Source: Paludibacterium sp. B53371
Lineage (GTDB): Bacteria > Pseudomonadota > Gammaproteobacteria > Burkholderiales > Chromobacteriaceae
Reading direction: 5' to 3'
Length of the DNA: 64,000 nt
Assembly: GCF_018802765.1 (NCBI RefSeq)
Contig: NZ_CP069163.1
Span: forward strand, 1,736,001 to 1,800,000
How positions within the stretch are numbered: position 1 is the stretch's first letter; each line of letters opens with the position of its first letter. The notes beneath the pieces are model-generated. The model was not told where the DNA came from. It did no database searches and saw only the letters and a program-made list of their open reading frames with translations. Positions 42,886 to 47,321 of this stretch are shown here, in pieces. Made by a program: the position numbers and the translations under genes.

Positions 42886-43193
42886 GATATCACCTATATG
42901 TTCTTGATTGACACACACTCACGAGGCGTAAAACCAGGATTTGAGCGACCGTGGAAATTTGAATATGGATCAGCATCCTGCAATGAGGCTTGCATAGAAA
43001 TATCAAACTACGGAATTTTATGCCATACATTTTACAAAAAATGGCTAGGAAGAATCTCATTCCTTCCAAGTATTGACATTATTCTCATTTATCATGGCAT
43101 GAAAAAACAATTACTTATCGCGCATCTCCCCCCTCACGCACTGGACACGCCGGAGGCAACACGTACACTGCTGCGTGAACAAAGGAGACCCGC
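42886..43193. other. AT-rich intergenic region, transporter and LysE promoters
   Basis: About 300 bases without a convincing gene; GC is well below that of the flanks. TTGACA occurs at 43073 without a well-spaced minus-10. A short open frame that runs through the area on the plus strand has no Shine-Dalgarno and no recognisable family. AT-rich ATTATTCTCATTT near 43078 resembles half of an iron-box but is not a full match. Confidence 0.3.
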
Positions 43194-43829
43194 ATGCCCC
43201 TGACCCCCGAACAAGTCGCCACGTTTCTGGCTGCCGCCATCCTGATCACGCTGGCTCCCGGCCCTGACAATCTCATGGTACTGAGCACCGGGATCAGCAA
43301 TGGTCGCAAGCCCGGCATGCTGTTCGGGCTCGGATGCGCACTGGGCTGCATCAATCACACCATCCTGGCCGCACTGGGCGTCAGTGCCCTGATTGCCGCC
43401 AGCCCGACAGCTTTCACCCTGCTGCGCCTGAGCGGCGGCGCCTACCTGATCTACCTGGGCATCCAGGCGCTGAGAAGCGGCGGAACGCGCTTTGAAAGCG
43501 GCCAGCCAACGGCATCACAGCCCTGGCGCCGCTACCTGCTGCGCGGCATCCTGGCCTCTGCCATCAACCCCAAAGTTGTGCTGTTCTTCCTGGCCTTCCT
43601 GCCGCAGTTCGTCGTCACCCGCCACGGACAGGTCAGCCTGCAGATCACCCTGCTCGGTCTACTGTTCACGCTGCAGGGCGGGCTGCTGTTTGCTTTGCTG
43701 GGGTATTTTTCCGGCGCAGTCGGTCAATGGCTCAAGCGACGGCCGCAGACGGGCCAATGGCTGGACCGTCTGGCCGGTAGTGTATTCGTACTGCTGGGAA
43801 TCAAACTGGCGCTGACGCAGAGCCGCTGA
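43194..43829 (+). CDS. LysE/RhtB-family amino acid exporter
   Basis: A 211-residue protein with six hydrophobic helices and the RhtB signature ITLAPGPDNLMVLSTGISNG near residue 20, plus FFLAFLPQFV in the middle. Such carriers export threonine, homoserine, lysine or cysteine derivatives; substrate is not decidable. AAAGGAG precedes the start at 43194. Confidence 0.93.
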   Translation: MPLTPEQVATFLAAAILITLAPGPDNLMVLSTGISNGRKPGMLFGLGCALGCINHTILAALGVSALIAASPTAFTLLRLSGGAYLIYLGIQALRSGGTRFESGQPTASQPWRRYLLRGILASAINPKVVLFFLAFLPQFVVTRHGQVSLQITLLGLLFTLQGGLLFALLGYFSGAVGQWLKRRPQTGQWLDRLAGSVFVLLGIKLALTQSR

Positions 43830-43843
43830 GGACGTGCGCCGGA

Positions 43844-44071
43844 TCAGGCCTTGGGCTTTTCCAGATCCATCAGCTTGCGCGCCACGCGCAGGTGAATCAG
43901 GCGCACCGCACCATCCATGGCCTCCCGCACCTCGGCACTCATGACGGCATAGCTGAGCGCATGGCCGCAGCCACGACAAAGCATCATATCTTCATCTTGC
44001 GGGAACTCGGGCCCCTCAATGTCCAGAGAGCAACATTTGGGACAGATCAGCAAGGGAGCCGGGTCGGACAT
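43844..44071 (-). CDS. small zinc-ribbon protein
   Basis: The 75-residue protein has CPKC (about 10-13) and CRGC (about 32-35), a zinc-ribbon pair, followed by a helical C-terminus (AMDGAVRLIHLRVARKLMDL). I do not recognise the family; the knuckle pair suggests nucleic acid or protein binding. It converges with LysE and is transcribed away from the UmuD-like gene. Confidence 0.7.
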   Translation of the reverse strand: MSDPAPLLICPKCCSLDIEGPEFPQDEDMMLCRGCGHALSYAVMSAEVREAMDGAVRLIHLRVARKLMDLEKPKA

Positions 44072-44248
44072 GGAAGGCTTTCAGCAGCAAGGGGAACGAT
44101 TCGGATTTTAGGCGGAACCAGCACCGTGTCAACCGCCTCGACACGGAAAGGCTGACGCCAGTCAAGACAACCCATTGTAATCGTTTCGTTTTTTCATTCT
44201 GTTGCAGCAACACATCACTCCCCGCCCAACAAACTTGCCTCACCGGAT

Positions 44249-44264
44249 GATTATGTACATAATC
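44249..44264. promoter_or_regulatory. 16-bp perfect palindrome before UmuD-like gene
   Basis: GATTATGTACATAATC is its own reverse complement. It ends 26 bases before the UmuD-like start, in the promoter area. The E. coli LexA box (CTG-N10-CAG) is not present, so a different regulator, possibly the UmuD-like protein itself, may bind. Confidence 0.55.
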
Positions 44265-44290
44265 AAAAAAAACGCTGAAGGAGCAGTCAG

Positions 44291-44869
44291 ATGACACAAG
44301 GCGGAAAACGCGAGGGAGCAGGACGCAAACCCCGCTTTGGCGCGGACAAGACGGTTGCCATGCGGGTGCCTGAGCCCCTCAAGCCCCTGCTGGACCAGTG
44401 GCTGAGCGATTATCGCGCACTGCGGACGCTGCAACGTAGCCAGGCGGAAGATTTTCGCACGCTCGGGCAAAGCCTGACGGCACTGTCCCTGCCGATGTTT
44501 GCCAGCCGCGTGCCAGCCGGCGCCCCCGTACCCGCAGATGATCTGCGCGAGGCCGACATCGACCTCAATACGCTGCTGGTCCGGCGCCCGGACACGACCT
44601 TCATGGTCACGGTCAAGGGAGAGTCCATGCGTGACGCCGCCATCCTGGATGGTGACATGCTACTGGTCGACAGCTCGATCGAGCCGCGCCATGGCAAGAT
44701 CGTCGTCGCCGTCATCAATGGCGAGCTGACGGTCAAAAGACTGGAAAAAACCGCACAGGGCATCCGCCTGATGCCGGAAAACCCGGATTTTTCCCCCATT
44801 GAAGTGCCCGAAGATGCCAGCTTTTTCATCTGGGGCGTGGTGACCCGAGTCATCCACCAGGTGGATTAA
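44291..44869 (+). CDS. UmuD-like S24 self-cleaving protein with basic N-terminal extension
   Basis: This 192-residue protein has a UmuD-type S24 peptidase fold in its C-terminal half: catalytic Ser112 in TVKGESMRDAAILDGD and Lys149 in GELTVKRLE, with a possible self-cleavage bond Ala76-Gly77 in VPAGAPVPADD. Unlike UmuD it begins with about 50 extra residues (GGKREGAGRKPRFGADKTVA) of the basic GAGRKP type found in DNA-binding or plasmid proteins. No umuC follows. It may thus be a regulator cleaved upon RecA activation rather than a polymerase subunit. GAAGGAG precedes the ATG by about ten bases. Confidence 0.85.
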   Translation: MTQGGKREGAGRKPRFGADKTVAMRVPEPLKPLLDQWLSDYRALRTLQRSQAEDFRTLGQSLTALSLPMFASRVPAGAPVPADDLREADIDLNTLLVRRPDTTFMVTVKGESMRDAAILDGDMLLVDSSIEPRHGKIVVAVINGELTVKRLEKTAQGIRLMPENPDFSPIEVPEDASFFIWGVVTRVIHQVD

Positions 44870-44915
44870 TCGTCAACGGACCGAGCCACCCGGCTCACCC
44901 GAACTGGAGCGCAAC

Positions 44916-45062
44916 ATGAACGTCAACGATCAACTCATCAAGATCAAATTCATGGACTGGCGTCGCCTGCCGCGCGCCTTCCGCAGCGTGGTCGCGGGCC
45001 AGCCGCAGGTACTGGTTTCGCGCACAGGAAAAAGCTTCTTCGTCCCGGTCGAATTCGTCTGA
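44916..45062 (+). CDS. 48-residue basic protein downstream of UmuD-like gene
   Basis: A short open frame encodes 48 residues (MNVNDQLIKIKFMDWRRLPR at the start) with basic and hydrophobic residues and a closing strand SFFVPVEFV. CTGGAG lies six bases before the ATG, and the gene starts 46 bases after the UmuD-like stop, so cotranscription is plausible. I do not recognise the family. It may be a small partner of the UmuD-like protein or not be translated. Confidence 0.45.
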   Translation: MNVNDQLIKIKFMDWRRLPRAFRSVVAGQPQVLVSRTGKSFFVPVEFV

Positions 45063-45350
45063 CCCCTCCCGCGTGCGGTCATGTCCCTGCGGCATACCGC
45101 ACAGCGGAAGACCGCCATGACTCGCTGTCCGCCCCCGCCAAGCCATAGTAATTTTCAATAACAACCCCATTCCGGCTGCCAAGCTGCACTGCAGCAAGTA
45201 AAATCCTATGGAATTTGCTCGATACCCGGCTGTCTAGCCATAAAAACCGGTCCTTCAGGACGCCATCGGCAAAATCCGGTTTTATCCCTTCTGCGGGATA
45301 TTTGCCCTGAGCGACCGGCCACATGACAACCGGCAGACTGCGCCACCCAT
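45063..45350. other. intergenic region before slt
   Basis: About 290 bases without a gene. GTGCGGT (45073-45079) and ACCGCAC (45096-45102) form an inverted repeat that could end the UmuD-like transcript, though no U-tract follows. A second small dyad (ATCCC/GGGAT) lies near 45285-45300. The slt start has no clear Shine-Dalgarno. Confidence 0.3.
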
Positions 45351-47321
45351 ATGGATATTCGCATGACCGTCATCTCTCGTACCTTGCGCCAGGCCTTGCT
45401 GGCCGCCCTCCTCACCATGCCGGCCCTCAGCCAGGCCTCCACACAGAGCGACCTGATCGGCGCGCTGGATGCCTACCGGGCCAACGACCTGAGCCGCCTG
45501 CAACAATACGCCACCAGCATGGGGAACGACCCTCTGGCCATTTACCCAGCCTATTGGATCACCCTCAAGGCACTGGACAAAGACGACGACGATCAGATCA
45601 AGCGCTTTCTCGACCAGAATGGTCCGGGCATCCTGACGGAAAAAGTCCGCCGCGAGTGGTTGAAAAAACTCGGCCAGCGCGGCAACTGGGCGTTGTTTGC
45701 CAGCCAGTGGAGCAAGCTGCCGCCCGAAGGACGTGACGAGGAAACCCAGTGTTATGGCGATTTGCTGACGCTGCGCCAGGGCACGGCCCCCGCCAATCTG
45801 GACCGCTTCCTGGATGGCCGCCCCGCCCCGGAAGGCTGCACGACCCTGATCAACGCCGCAGCACAGCGCGGCCTGCTCAGCCAGGACTGGCTGTGGAAAC
45901 GCCTGCGCCGACTGTTGACCGGCAATTACCTTACCCAGGCGCGTCAGCTGGCCGACAACAACAATCTGCCCTTCAATGCCACCCTGATCAACAGCCCGGG
46001 CAAGGTTGACCTCTCGACCAGACAGGGGCAGGAGATCATGCTGCTGTCGATCGAAAACAAGGCCCGCAACAACCCGCAGGATGCCGCCAGAGCGCTGAGC
46101 GCCGTTGAGGACAGCATCGGCAAATCGGCTGCCGGCTATGGCTGGGGCCAACTGGCGCTGCTGGCAGCCCGCAAGCTGCAGATGGACGACGCCCTGAACT
46201 GGTATGCCCGCGCAGATAGGCAGCAACTGAACAACGACCAATGGGAGTGGTGGGCCCGTGCCGCCCTGCGCCAGGGGCAGTGGGATCTCCTGCAAAATGT
46301 CATTCAGTCGATGCCGCCCGCGCTGAGCGCCAAACCAGCCTGGCAATACTGGCTGGCCCGCGCCCTGCGCACCCGCAATCAGCAAGGAGAGGCCAACGCC
46401 CTGCTGGCCCGTGCCAGCAACGATCGCGGCTATTACGGCCTGCTGGCTCAGGAAGAGCTTGGCAACAGCCTGAAGGCGCTGCCCGACCGCAGCACCCCCG
46501 GCGAGCAGGACAGTGCCCTGATGCGCCGCGATCCGGCCATCATCCGCGCCCTGGCCCTGTACGACATCGCCGAAAATGCCCGGCGCCCTGATCTGCGCAG
46601 CGAGGCCCAGAACGAGTGGCGCTGGGCCATGCGCGGCCGCAGCGACATGCAGCTGCTGGCCGCCTCCGAAATTGCCCGCAAAGTGGGTTTTTACGACATG
46701 GCCATCTACAGCGCGGAGCGGACCCAGACCCAGCATGACTTTTCCCTGCGCTATCTGACCCCCTTCAAGGAGATCACCCAGCGCTACGCCAAACAGATCG
46801 GCATCGATGATGCCTGGGTCTACGGTCTGATCCGCCAGGAAAGCCGCTTCATCACCATGGCCCGATCCGGCCCCGGCGCCACCGGGCTGATGCAGCTGAT
46901 GCCGGCGACGGCACGCTGGGTTGCCAAGAAAATGGGCCTTTCCAACCAGCTGGCCATCAACGATATTGAAACCAATATCCAGCTTGGCACCTGGTACCTG
47001 AAATACGTACTGACCTCACTGTCCGGCAATCCGGTCCTGGCGACCGCCGGCTATAACGCCGGCCCGAACCGCGCCCGCGCCTGGCAGGCCAGCACGCCGA
47101 TGGATGGCACCATCTATGCCGAGACCATTCCTTTCAGCGAAACGCGTGACTATGTGCAAAAAGTCATGGCCAACGCGGCTTACTACGGCAGCGCAATGAA
47201 CAATGCAAACATCACGCTGAAAACCCGCATGGGCACCATCCCGGCCCGCGGCCAGTCCGGCAACGGCAGCGCCGACCAGAGCCCGGCTCAGGCCAGCCCG
47301 TCCCCGGAACTGACGCCATGA
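45351..47321 (+). CDS. slt: soluble lytic murein transglycosylase, Slt70 type
   Basis: Slt70 cuts the glycan strands of peptidoglycan in the periplasm. The 656-residue length matches. A signal peptide occupies the first 30 residues (LRQALLAALLTMPALSQAS). A long superhelical alpha domain fills about 35-450, and the catalytic domain (about 470-620) has the Glu in YGLIRQESRFITMARSGPG and GLMQLMPATARWVAKKMG. The start could be 45351 or 45363; neither has a good ribosome site. Its stop overlaps cca by four bases. Confidence 0.95.
   Translation: MDIRMTVISRTLRQALLAALLTMPALSQASTQSDLIGALDAYRANDLSRLQQYATSMGNDPLAIYPAYWITLKALDKDDDDQIKRFLDQNGPGILTEKVRREWLKKLGQRGNWALFASQWSKLPPEGRDEETQCYGDLLTLRQGTAPANLDRFLDGRPAPEGCTTLINAAAQRGLLSQDWLWKRLRRLLTGNYLTQARQLADNNNLPFNATLINSPGKVDLSTRQGQEIMLLSIENKARNNPQDAARALSAVEDSIGKSAAGYGWGQLALLAARKLQMDDALNWYARADRQQLNNDQWEWWARAALRQGQWDLLQNVIQSMPPALSAKPAWQYWLARALRTRNQQGEANALLARASNDRGYYGLLAQEELGNSLKALPDRSTPGEQDSALMRRDPAIIRALALYDIAENARRPDLRSEAQNEWRWAMRGRSDMQLLAASEIARKVGFYDMAIYSAERTQTQHDFSLRYLTPFKEITQRYAKQIGIDDAWVYGLIRQESRFITMARSGPGATGLMQLMPATARWVAKKMGLSNQLAINDIETNIQLGTWYLKYVLTSLSGNPVLATAGYNAGPNRARAWQASTPMDGTIYAETIPFSETRDYVQKVMANAAYYGSAMNNANITLKTRMGTIPARGQSGNGSADQSPAQASPSPELTP

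Follow-up and report, generated by a model that had tools for sequence, protein, structure and literature searches.

The orphan long UmuD gene described here (P0001) probably encodes a UmuD-derived, RecA-cleavable repressor that stands in place of LexA, heads an SOS-like regulon, and works with an obligate small partner (P0002). LexA is the usual switch for DNA-damage genes, and UmuD is a polymerase subunit that is normally under LexA control; our analysis suggests that such a subunit can be turned into a DNA-damage switch in its own right. The proposal is built on features established by sequence comparison, namely, the domains of P0001, its invariant residues, the operators and their positions, a constant gene pair, and the absence of LexA. 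The window (the whole stretch of 64,000 nucleotides that was analyzed, G000:C1:1736001-1800000) belongs to a genome of 3.63 Mb in a single contig that is 99.7% complete. No report of such a regulator was found among the papers listed by searches of the open-licence literature.

The orphan long UmuD and its promoter

P0001 (192 amino acids [aa]; positions 44291 to 44869, + strand) is a proposed self-cleaving repressor with an S24 peptidase domain toward its C terminus (Pfam, 110 bits). Residues 76 to 189 match the NCBIfam UmuD model PRK10276.1 with 142.6 bits against a cut-off of 110, while the LexA profile TIGR00498 (95.8 bits over residues 42 to 191; cut-off, 110.95) and the HumD profile NF051876 (54.9 bits; cut-off, 120) fell short of theirs. 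A sequence search of the PDB returned UmuD, UmuD', and LexA as the top matches. The weak match to the LexA profile would fit a true LexA whose N-terminal domain has diverged past recognition, which we consider extremely improbable, as the LexA helix-turn-helix is absent from P0001, the profile and PDB sequence searches place the protein closest to UmuD, P0001 falls with the UmuDs in the tree whereas LexA forms a separate clade (100/100), and its N-terminal domain is common to umuDC-linked UmuDs. A LexA relic was likewise ruled out by the absence of PF01726 and by the tree position. The self-cleavage residues are intact, as the original prediction had it: the predicted cleavage bond Ala76-Gly77 (codons at 44516 to 44521, + strand) and the catalytic residues Ser112 (44624 to 44626, + strand) and Lys149 (44735 to 44737, + strand) are all invariant in 20 orthologues. 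Its counterpart in UmuDAb is the Ala83-Gly84 bond described in PMC4807011.

Residues 1 to 45 (44291 to 44425, + strand) form an N-terminal domain with the sequence GGKREGAGRKP...TVAMRVP followed by a helix; the domain is proposed to read DNA and aligns with those of UmuDAb and other long UmuDs. G4, G5, R7, G11, R12, R25, and P27 are invariant in an alignment of 12 sequences. AlphaFold places a strand at residues 22 to 23 and helices at residues 28 to 45 and 49 to 63, in a weak prediction with a pLDDT below 50 over residues 1 to 32. The strand-helix-helix order fits that of a ribbon-helix-helix protein, at low pLDDT and with no sequence match, and searches of Pfam and the PDB with the domain returned no convincing relative and no recognized DNA-binding family.

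The gene following P0001 is that of P0002, and then comes an ORF of 656 aa taken for a lytic transglycosylase; umuC is not adjacent, in agreement with the earlier reading. A separate umuDC operon is present in the genome (L003:1396-3341, corresponding to G000:C1:1869172-1871117, with the match at G000:C1:1869277), and its UmuD is a second long UmuD with its own N-terminal domain (N terminus GGARRGAGRP). The neighborhood of P0001 consists of chromosomal housekeeping genes, and a prophage gene was ruled out by this context and by the spread of the gene over 53 genomes. An Rfam search of positions 43000 to 46500 and a PADLOC search gave zero matches each, and the structured RNA and defense system readings were dropped. 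Divergent from the P0001 gene, a 75-aa CxxC protein is encoded at window positions 43844 to 44071 (- strand); its match to ECs_2282 (29.5/37 bits) is under the cut-off.

The predicted operator of P0001 is a perfect 18-bp palindrome, TGATTATGTACATAATCA (44248 to 44265), with the family consensus TTGAWNNYGTACRNNWTCAA. The original prediction had described an exact palindrome of 16 bp, of which the perfect symmetry stands and the length is corrected. A sigma-70-like promoter (44235 to 44263, + strand) consists of TTGCCT (44235 to 44240), a 17-nt spacer, and CATAAT (44258 to 44263), and the palindrome overlaps the second hexamer; the promoter score of 9 out of 12 reflects consensus matches only. 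In an alignment of 14 upstream sequences, the operator arms and the central GTAC form an invariant block with diverging surroundings, and CTTG at the start of the promoter is invariant as well. The motif TGA-N4-GTAC-N4-TCA precedes all 22 named orthologues, including that of the window, compared with 0 in 300 shuffles, and the 12-bp core of the palindrome, with up to one mismatch allowed, is single copy in the 3.63-Mb genome; a chance palindrome was rejected on these two grounds. The degenerate operator also occurs only once in the 64,000 nt of the window. The LexA box CTGT-N8-ACAG has zero occurrences in the window, which bears out its reported absence, and a canonical SOS box was rejected on this count.

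From these features we infer DNA binding, repression, RecA-dependent cleavage, and a role for the small partner. A P0001 dimer would bind the 20-bp operator TTGA-N4-GTAC-N4-TCAA via its N-terminal GGxRxGAGRKP...RVP domain, and an operator occupied over the -10 region would keep the promoter of its own operon shut. The umuDC operons would also be bound in those relatives in which the operon UmuD has no N-terminal domain, and further targets, depending on the genus, would include recA, rmuC, and the gene of an M32 peptidase. Upon DNA damage, the RecA filament would prompt self-cleavage at Ala76-Gly77 through Ser112 and Lys149, and this cleavage would part the DNA-binding end from the dimerizing end, freeing the promoters and releasing the regulon. 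P0002 probably tunes binding or cleavage, by analogy with DdrR and UmuDAb.

Operator sites, their genes, and LexA in the Chromobacterium family

Whole-genome searches identified full-length P0001 orthologues in 53 of the 61 genomes of the Chromobacterium family, with identities of 65 to 91% over nearly the full length, the window gene itself aside. The named orthologues come from Paludibacterium, Vogesella, Chromobacterium, Gulbenkiania, and Pseudogulbenkiania, the closest (90 to 91%) being those of Paludibacterium. Genus and family names were assigned to the searched genomes through contigs in common with named records. The 61 genomes were searched for operators with the degenerate palindrome TGAWNNYGTACRNNWTCA, and the reversed pattern served as the control. 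The pattern yielded 169 sites versus 7 for the control, with 168 in the 53 genomes that have an orthologue and a single one in the 8 that do not; because sites are inherited among related genomes, such counts are not independent events. When the search was extended to other families of the order (29 genomes), six sites were found, three of which are copies inside a repeated ORF of genome G216 and were rejected as a regulon.

A genomic context could be assigned to 143 of the 169 sites; the listed genomes did not include G027 to G029, G048, G050, G053, G057, and G058, which account for the other 26. The P0001 orthologue itself is preceded by 43 of the placed sites and recA by 14. An exact site is present at 43 of the 45 orthologues of the listed genomes, at 18 to 36 bp from the start in 42 cases and at 116 bp in one. 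The remaining 86 sites comprise 43 at or in front of UmuD/UmuC genes (a divergent SRAP gene accompanies some of them, and one is a weak match that may be DinB), 10 at M32 peptidase genes, 9 at RmuC genes, 3 at the gene of a 130-aa protein, and 2 at HlyD genes; for 19 of the 86, a recognized target is missing. The RmuC sites are upstream of the gene in three genera (near position 1401 of loci L136, L141, L149, L153, L181, L195, L205, L207, and L212). The sites at the M32 carboxypeptidase-Taq gene, found in several genera (near 1401 in L147, L156, L157, L159, L162, L165, L167, L178, L182, and L184), have a divergent partner that is SnoaL-like in 8 of 10 cases and a GFA gene in 2 of 10, and the peptidase gene is, by its operators, a candidate for an unexpected damage-response target. 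Two g10 genomes have an operator 46 to 55 bp upstream of an HlyD-like membrane-fusion gene (L203 and L214, near 1401). In genus g2, operators precede seemingly decayed or shortened copies of UmuD, some near chemoreceptor-like genes (near 1401 in L130, L135, L139, L142, L148, L150, and L154).

For recA, 30 of 60 matches were fetched and 29 loci were readable. Operators were present at 12 of these 29, with two sites per recA in three Paludibacterium genomes and one each in nine g10 genomes, which are taken as Vogesella, and the two Paludibacterium sites are much better conserved than the flanking recA promoter sequence. No operator was seen at the other 17 recA loci, including those of Chromobacterium-type genomes (g3) and of g2. 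Exact matches to the pattern in the window genome are confined to the P0001 gene and recA, the two recA sites being at G000:C1:2142928-2142947 and 2142962-2142981. A near-operator, TTGATTATGTAGTATATCAT, with the core GTAG is located at G000:C1:3445606-3445625 (L061:2607-2626), with a peptidase-like gene on one side and a gene resembling that of a small membrane protein on the other, and is perhaps a weak extra target or a chance occurrence.

These distributions bear on a reading in which P0001 binds DNA and controls itself only, the other sites being relics or being read by other S24 proteins, so that there is no regulon in trans. The small number of exact sites in the window genome and the g2 sites that precede decayed UmuD copies are in its favor. 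On the other side, where a umuDC operon carries the 20-bp site, its UmuD is of the kind lacking the N-terminal domain and should be unable to read that site itself, and sites are also found at rmuC and recA, where no UmuD adjoins. We regard the absence of a regulon in trans as quite unlikely. The repressor reading is also consistent with the division among the UmuD genes other than the orthologues, for which the N-terminal domain was judged from alignment starts in the listed genomes only: the 20-bp site is present at none of the nine with the domain versus 38 of the 51 without it (Fisher p 3e-5), and the other 13 of the 51 have no exact site. This split points to control by the orphan where a UmuD has no reading head and to self-control where it has one.

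The umuDC operon of the window genome carries a 23-bp repeat, TTGAATTTTGCTGCAATAATCAA, which is longer than the P0001-type site and is of the same type in the five other genomes of the genus; two insulated operator codes may exist side by side in one cell. A umuC gene elsewhere under the same control had been named as an outcome that would speak against the original prediction. As far as operators go, such control is present in the relatives, and this extends rather than refutes the repressor idea; in the window genome, umuDC has the differing, longer repeat.

It could also be argued that P0001 is a mere accessory UmuD of Pol V for a distant UmuC, that a different repressor reads the palindrome, and that the N-terminal domain serves protein contacts. 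This is in keeping with the score of P0001 over the NCBIfam UmuD cut-off, with the presence of umuC in the genome, and with the lack of a recognized DNA-binding fold in the N-terminal domain. However, the distant umuC already has a UmuD of its own, the operator type tracks possession of the N-terminal domain, the eight genomes without a P0001 gene have just one site, and the homologous N-terminal domain of UmuDAb was described as required for repression (PMC4807011). An accessory role of this kind is unlikely.

Across the family (61 genomes), the model of the LexA helix-turn-helix (PF01726) had a single match above its cut-off, in G021, and the window genome had none; the G021 match reads as a GntR-like regulator, with no S24 domain. 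The same model was over its cut-off in 9 of 14 well-known genomes used as controls. Elsewhere in the order, it was found in 11 of 18 other genomes versus 0 of 11 with a strong long-UmuD match (Fisher p 0.001), the 11 having been picked for that match and the comparison set excluding G066 (68% complete); 7 of the 18 have neither LexA nor a strong long UmuD. A survey from 2011 reported lexA and SOS boxes to be missing in Laribacter, Chromobacterium violaceum, and Neisseria and, in its account of these bacteria, left open whether the SOS response is constitutive or absent (PMC3135505). The account in PMC4913304 likewise has LexA missing in C. violaceum and Laribacter, with the SOS response left open. 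A candidate regulator, operator, and target genes can now be named for most of the Chromobacterium family, which makes the SOS question in this family directly testable.

The idea of an autoregulated, damage-cleaved, DNA-binding protein with LexA-like logic on a UmuD body, which the original prediction put forward, gains support from the homology with UmuDAb, the conserved operator, the invariant residues, and the lack of a LexA in the family. It was understated: the regulator is conserved family-wide, its predicted regulon comprises umuDC, recA (in two genera), and rmuC, and P0002 is its obligate neighbor.

The 48-residue neighbor

P0002 is a basic protein of 48 aa (44916 to 45062, + strand) that is proposed to be cotranscribed with P0001 and to help the repressor; no terminator-like site was found between the two genes. 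The small ORF that had been noticed behind P0001 proved to be conserved, being present in 53 of the 53 genomes with a P0001 orthologue and in 0 of the 8 others of the family. In all 53, it is on the same contig and strand as the orthologue, 17 to 232 bp downstream, and a pairing with no exception points to a function that the two share. The alignment of 13 sequences has 17 invariant columns, and none of the 13 family members matches Pfam. The AlphaFold model is strand rich, with a best pLDDT of 86.8 (64.0 to 86.8 over five models). Foldseek with this model gave no match at an E value of ≤0.001; the best VIA result had a Z of 2.5, which is not meaningful, and the Phd/YefM-like fold guessed from the sequence was absent among the matches listed. 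No phage homologue of P0002 was found. A relative with 50% identity is encoded on a Diaphorobacter plasmid (L311:2474-2650), where it is not beside umuD, and this small family may act elsewhere too. P0002 is a candidate counterpart of DdrR because of its position and constancy, and the two share no sequence similarity: P0002 gave no alignment with the DdrR-like protein of locus L227. The N-terminal domain of P0001, a predicted DNA-binding domain that is uncharacterized, and this small partner are both available for study.

Long UmuDs and known damage-response regulators

Legionella and Acinetobacter plasmids also encode UmuDs with the N-terminal domain, as GGxRxGAGRxP...(I/V)P, and so do other families of the order. 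Outside the orthologue group, TTGA-N12-15-TCAA occurs just upstream of 19 of 21 long UmuD genes, versus a mean of 0.64 and a highest count of 4 in 2,000 rounds of shuffling, the pattern having been written after looking at the sequences and related loci not being independent. With five divergent long UmuDs added, the arms are present in 21 of 26; they are absent from the Sulfuricella plasmid UmuD, from G310, and from three of the five divergent long UmuDs of the family (G032, G036, and G037). The operator length varies by clade, with 20 bp in the P0001 group, 21 bp in UmuDAb, 22 bp in the Legionella plasmid and family f34 (one member of which has 21 bp), and 23 bp in the operon UmuDs of Paludibacterium. 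In the tree, the orphan group (80/76) is apart from the operon UmuDs, UmuDAb, and LexA, with the deep order not settled. Among 80 loci of viral contigs, the N-terminal motif of long UmuDs was found in one, which has no arms. The umuDC operon of a Legionella israelensis plasmid (L228:354-3579) has its own palindrome, TTGATAAATGTACGATTATCAA, and a GFA-family gene nearby; GFA genes adjoin the operators in L182 and L184 as well.

We lean slightly toward the view that these long UmuDs make up a broad, unrecognized class in which every member has a DNA-reading N-terminal domain and a TTGA...TCAA operator of its own, with clade-specific spacing. LexA would have been replaced from this class separately in Acinetobacter and in the Chromobacteriaceae, where the orphan with its 48-aa coregulator would have taken over recA and umuDC and most operon UmuDs would have lost a redundant N-terminal domain. 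If this is true, UmuDAb is one member of the class and no peculiarity of Acinetobacter.

P0001 shares with the UmuD of Pol V its C-terminal S24 part, over the cut-off of PRK10276.1, and differs from it in the extra N-terminal domain, the lack of an adjacent umuC, and an operator common to other genes. It resembles LexA in the expected logic, with S24 self-cleavage, control of its own gene from an operator that covers the promoter, and targets among recA and error-prone polymerase genes, but it has no LexA helix-turn-helix and a different operator. The streptococcal HdiR and the S24 proteins that regulate the SOS response in Bacteroidetes are described in PMC8565304 as having taken over SOS control where LexA is missing. 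They are S24 repressors standing in the place of LexA, as proposed for P0001, but they are phage-repressor-like; the same study reports that none of the Bacteroidetes UmuDs it found has a DNA-binding domain.

The closest parallel is with UmuDAb of Acinetobacter, a proven LexA substitute with the operator TTGA-N4-GTWAC-N4-TCAA (PMC11332147). According to PMC4807011, it requires its N-terminal domain and inverted repeats for repression and self-cleaves with RecA, and its control is described in PMC8565304 as seemingly restricted to type V polymerases. Locus L227 (CAKLQH020000001.1:255269-260832), from Acinetobacter, encodes a UmuD of 203 aa and a divergent 78-aa gene, which we infer to be UmuDAb and DdrR because the protein length, the presence of a small divergent gene, and the TTGAAAATGTAACTTTTTCAA repeat match the descriptions in PMC4807011 and PMC11332147. 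The locus is part of a 328-kb record that is filed as "Acinetobacter phage MD-2021a" and, in this stretch, looks like bacterial chromosome, with UmuDAb-like, DdrR-like, rhtB, and lrp genes. P0001 aligns with this UmuDAb from end to end (residues 3 to 185, 37% identity, E value of 2e-35), with the N-terminal domain included. Both have an S24 UmuD body with an alignable extra N-terminal domain (GGARENAGRK...VIRVPES in UmuDAb), the Ala-Gly/Ser/Lys set (seven residues further on in UmuDAb), TTGA/TCAA arms with a GT..AC core at their own promoter, umuDC operons as targets (here by operators in relatives), a genus without LexA, and a small partner gene adjoining. However, they do not group as sisters in the tree, and the 21-bp operator of UmuDAb has GTWAC, whereas the 20-bp operator of the P0001 group has GTAC, the central base being absent. 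The small partners differ as well, the DdrR-like protein of L227 being divergent and of 78 aa and P0002 being of 48 aa, downstream on the same strand, and dissimilar. In addition, the predicted targets of P0001 include recA, rmuC, and the M32-peptidase gene, whereas those of UmuDAb appear to be type V polymerases only.
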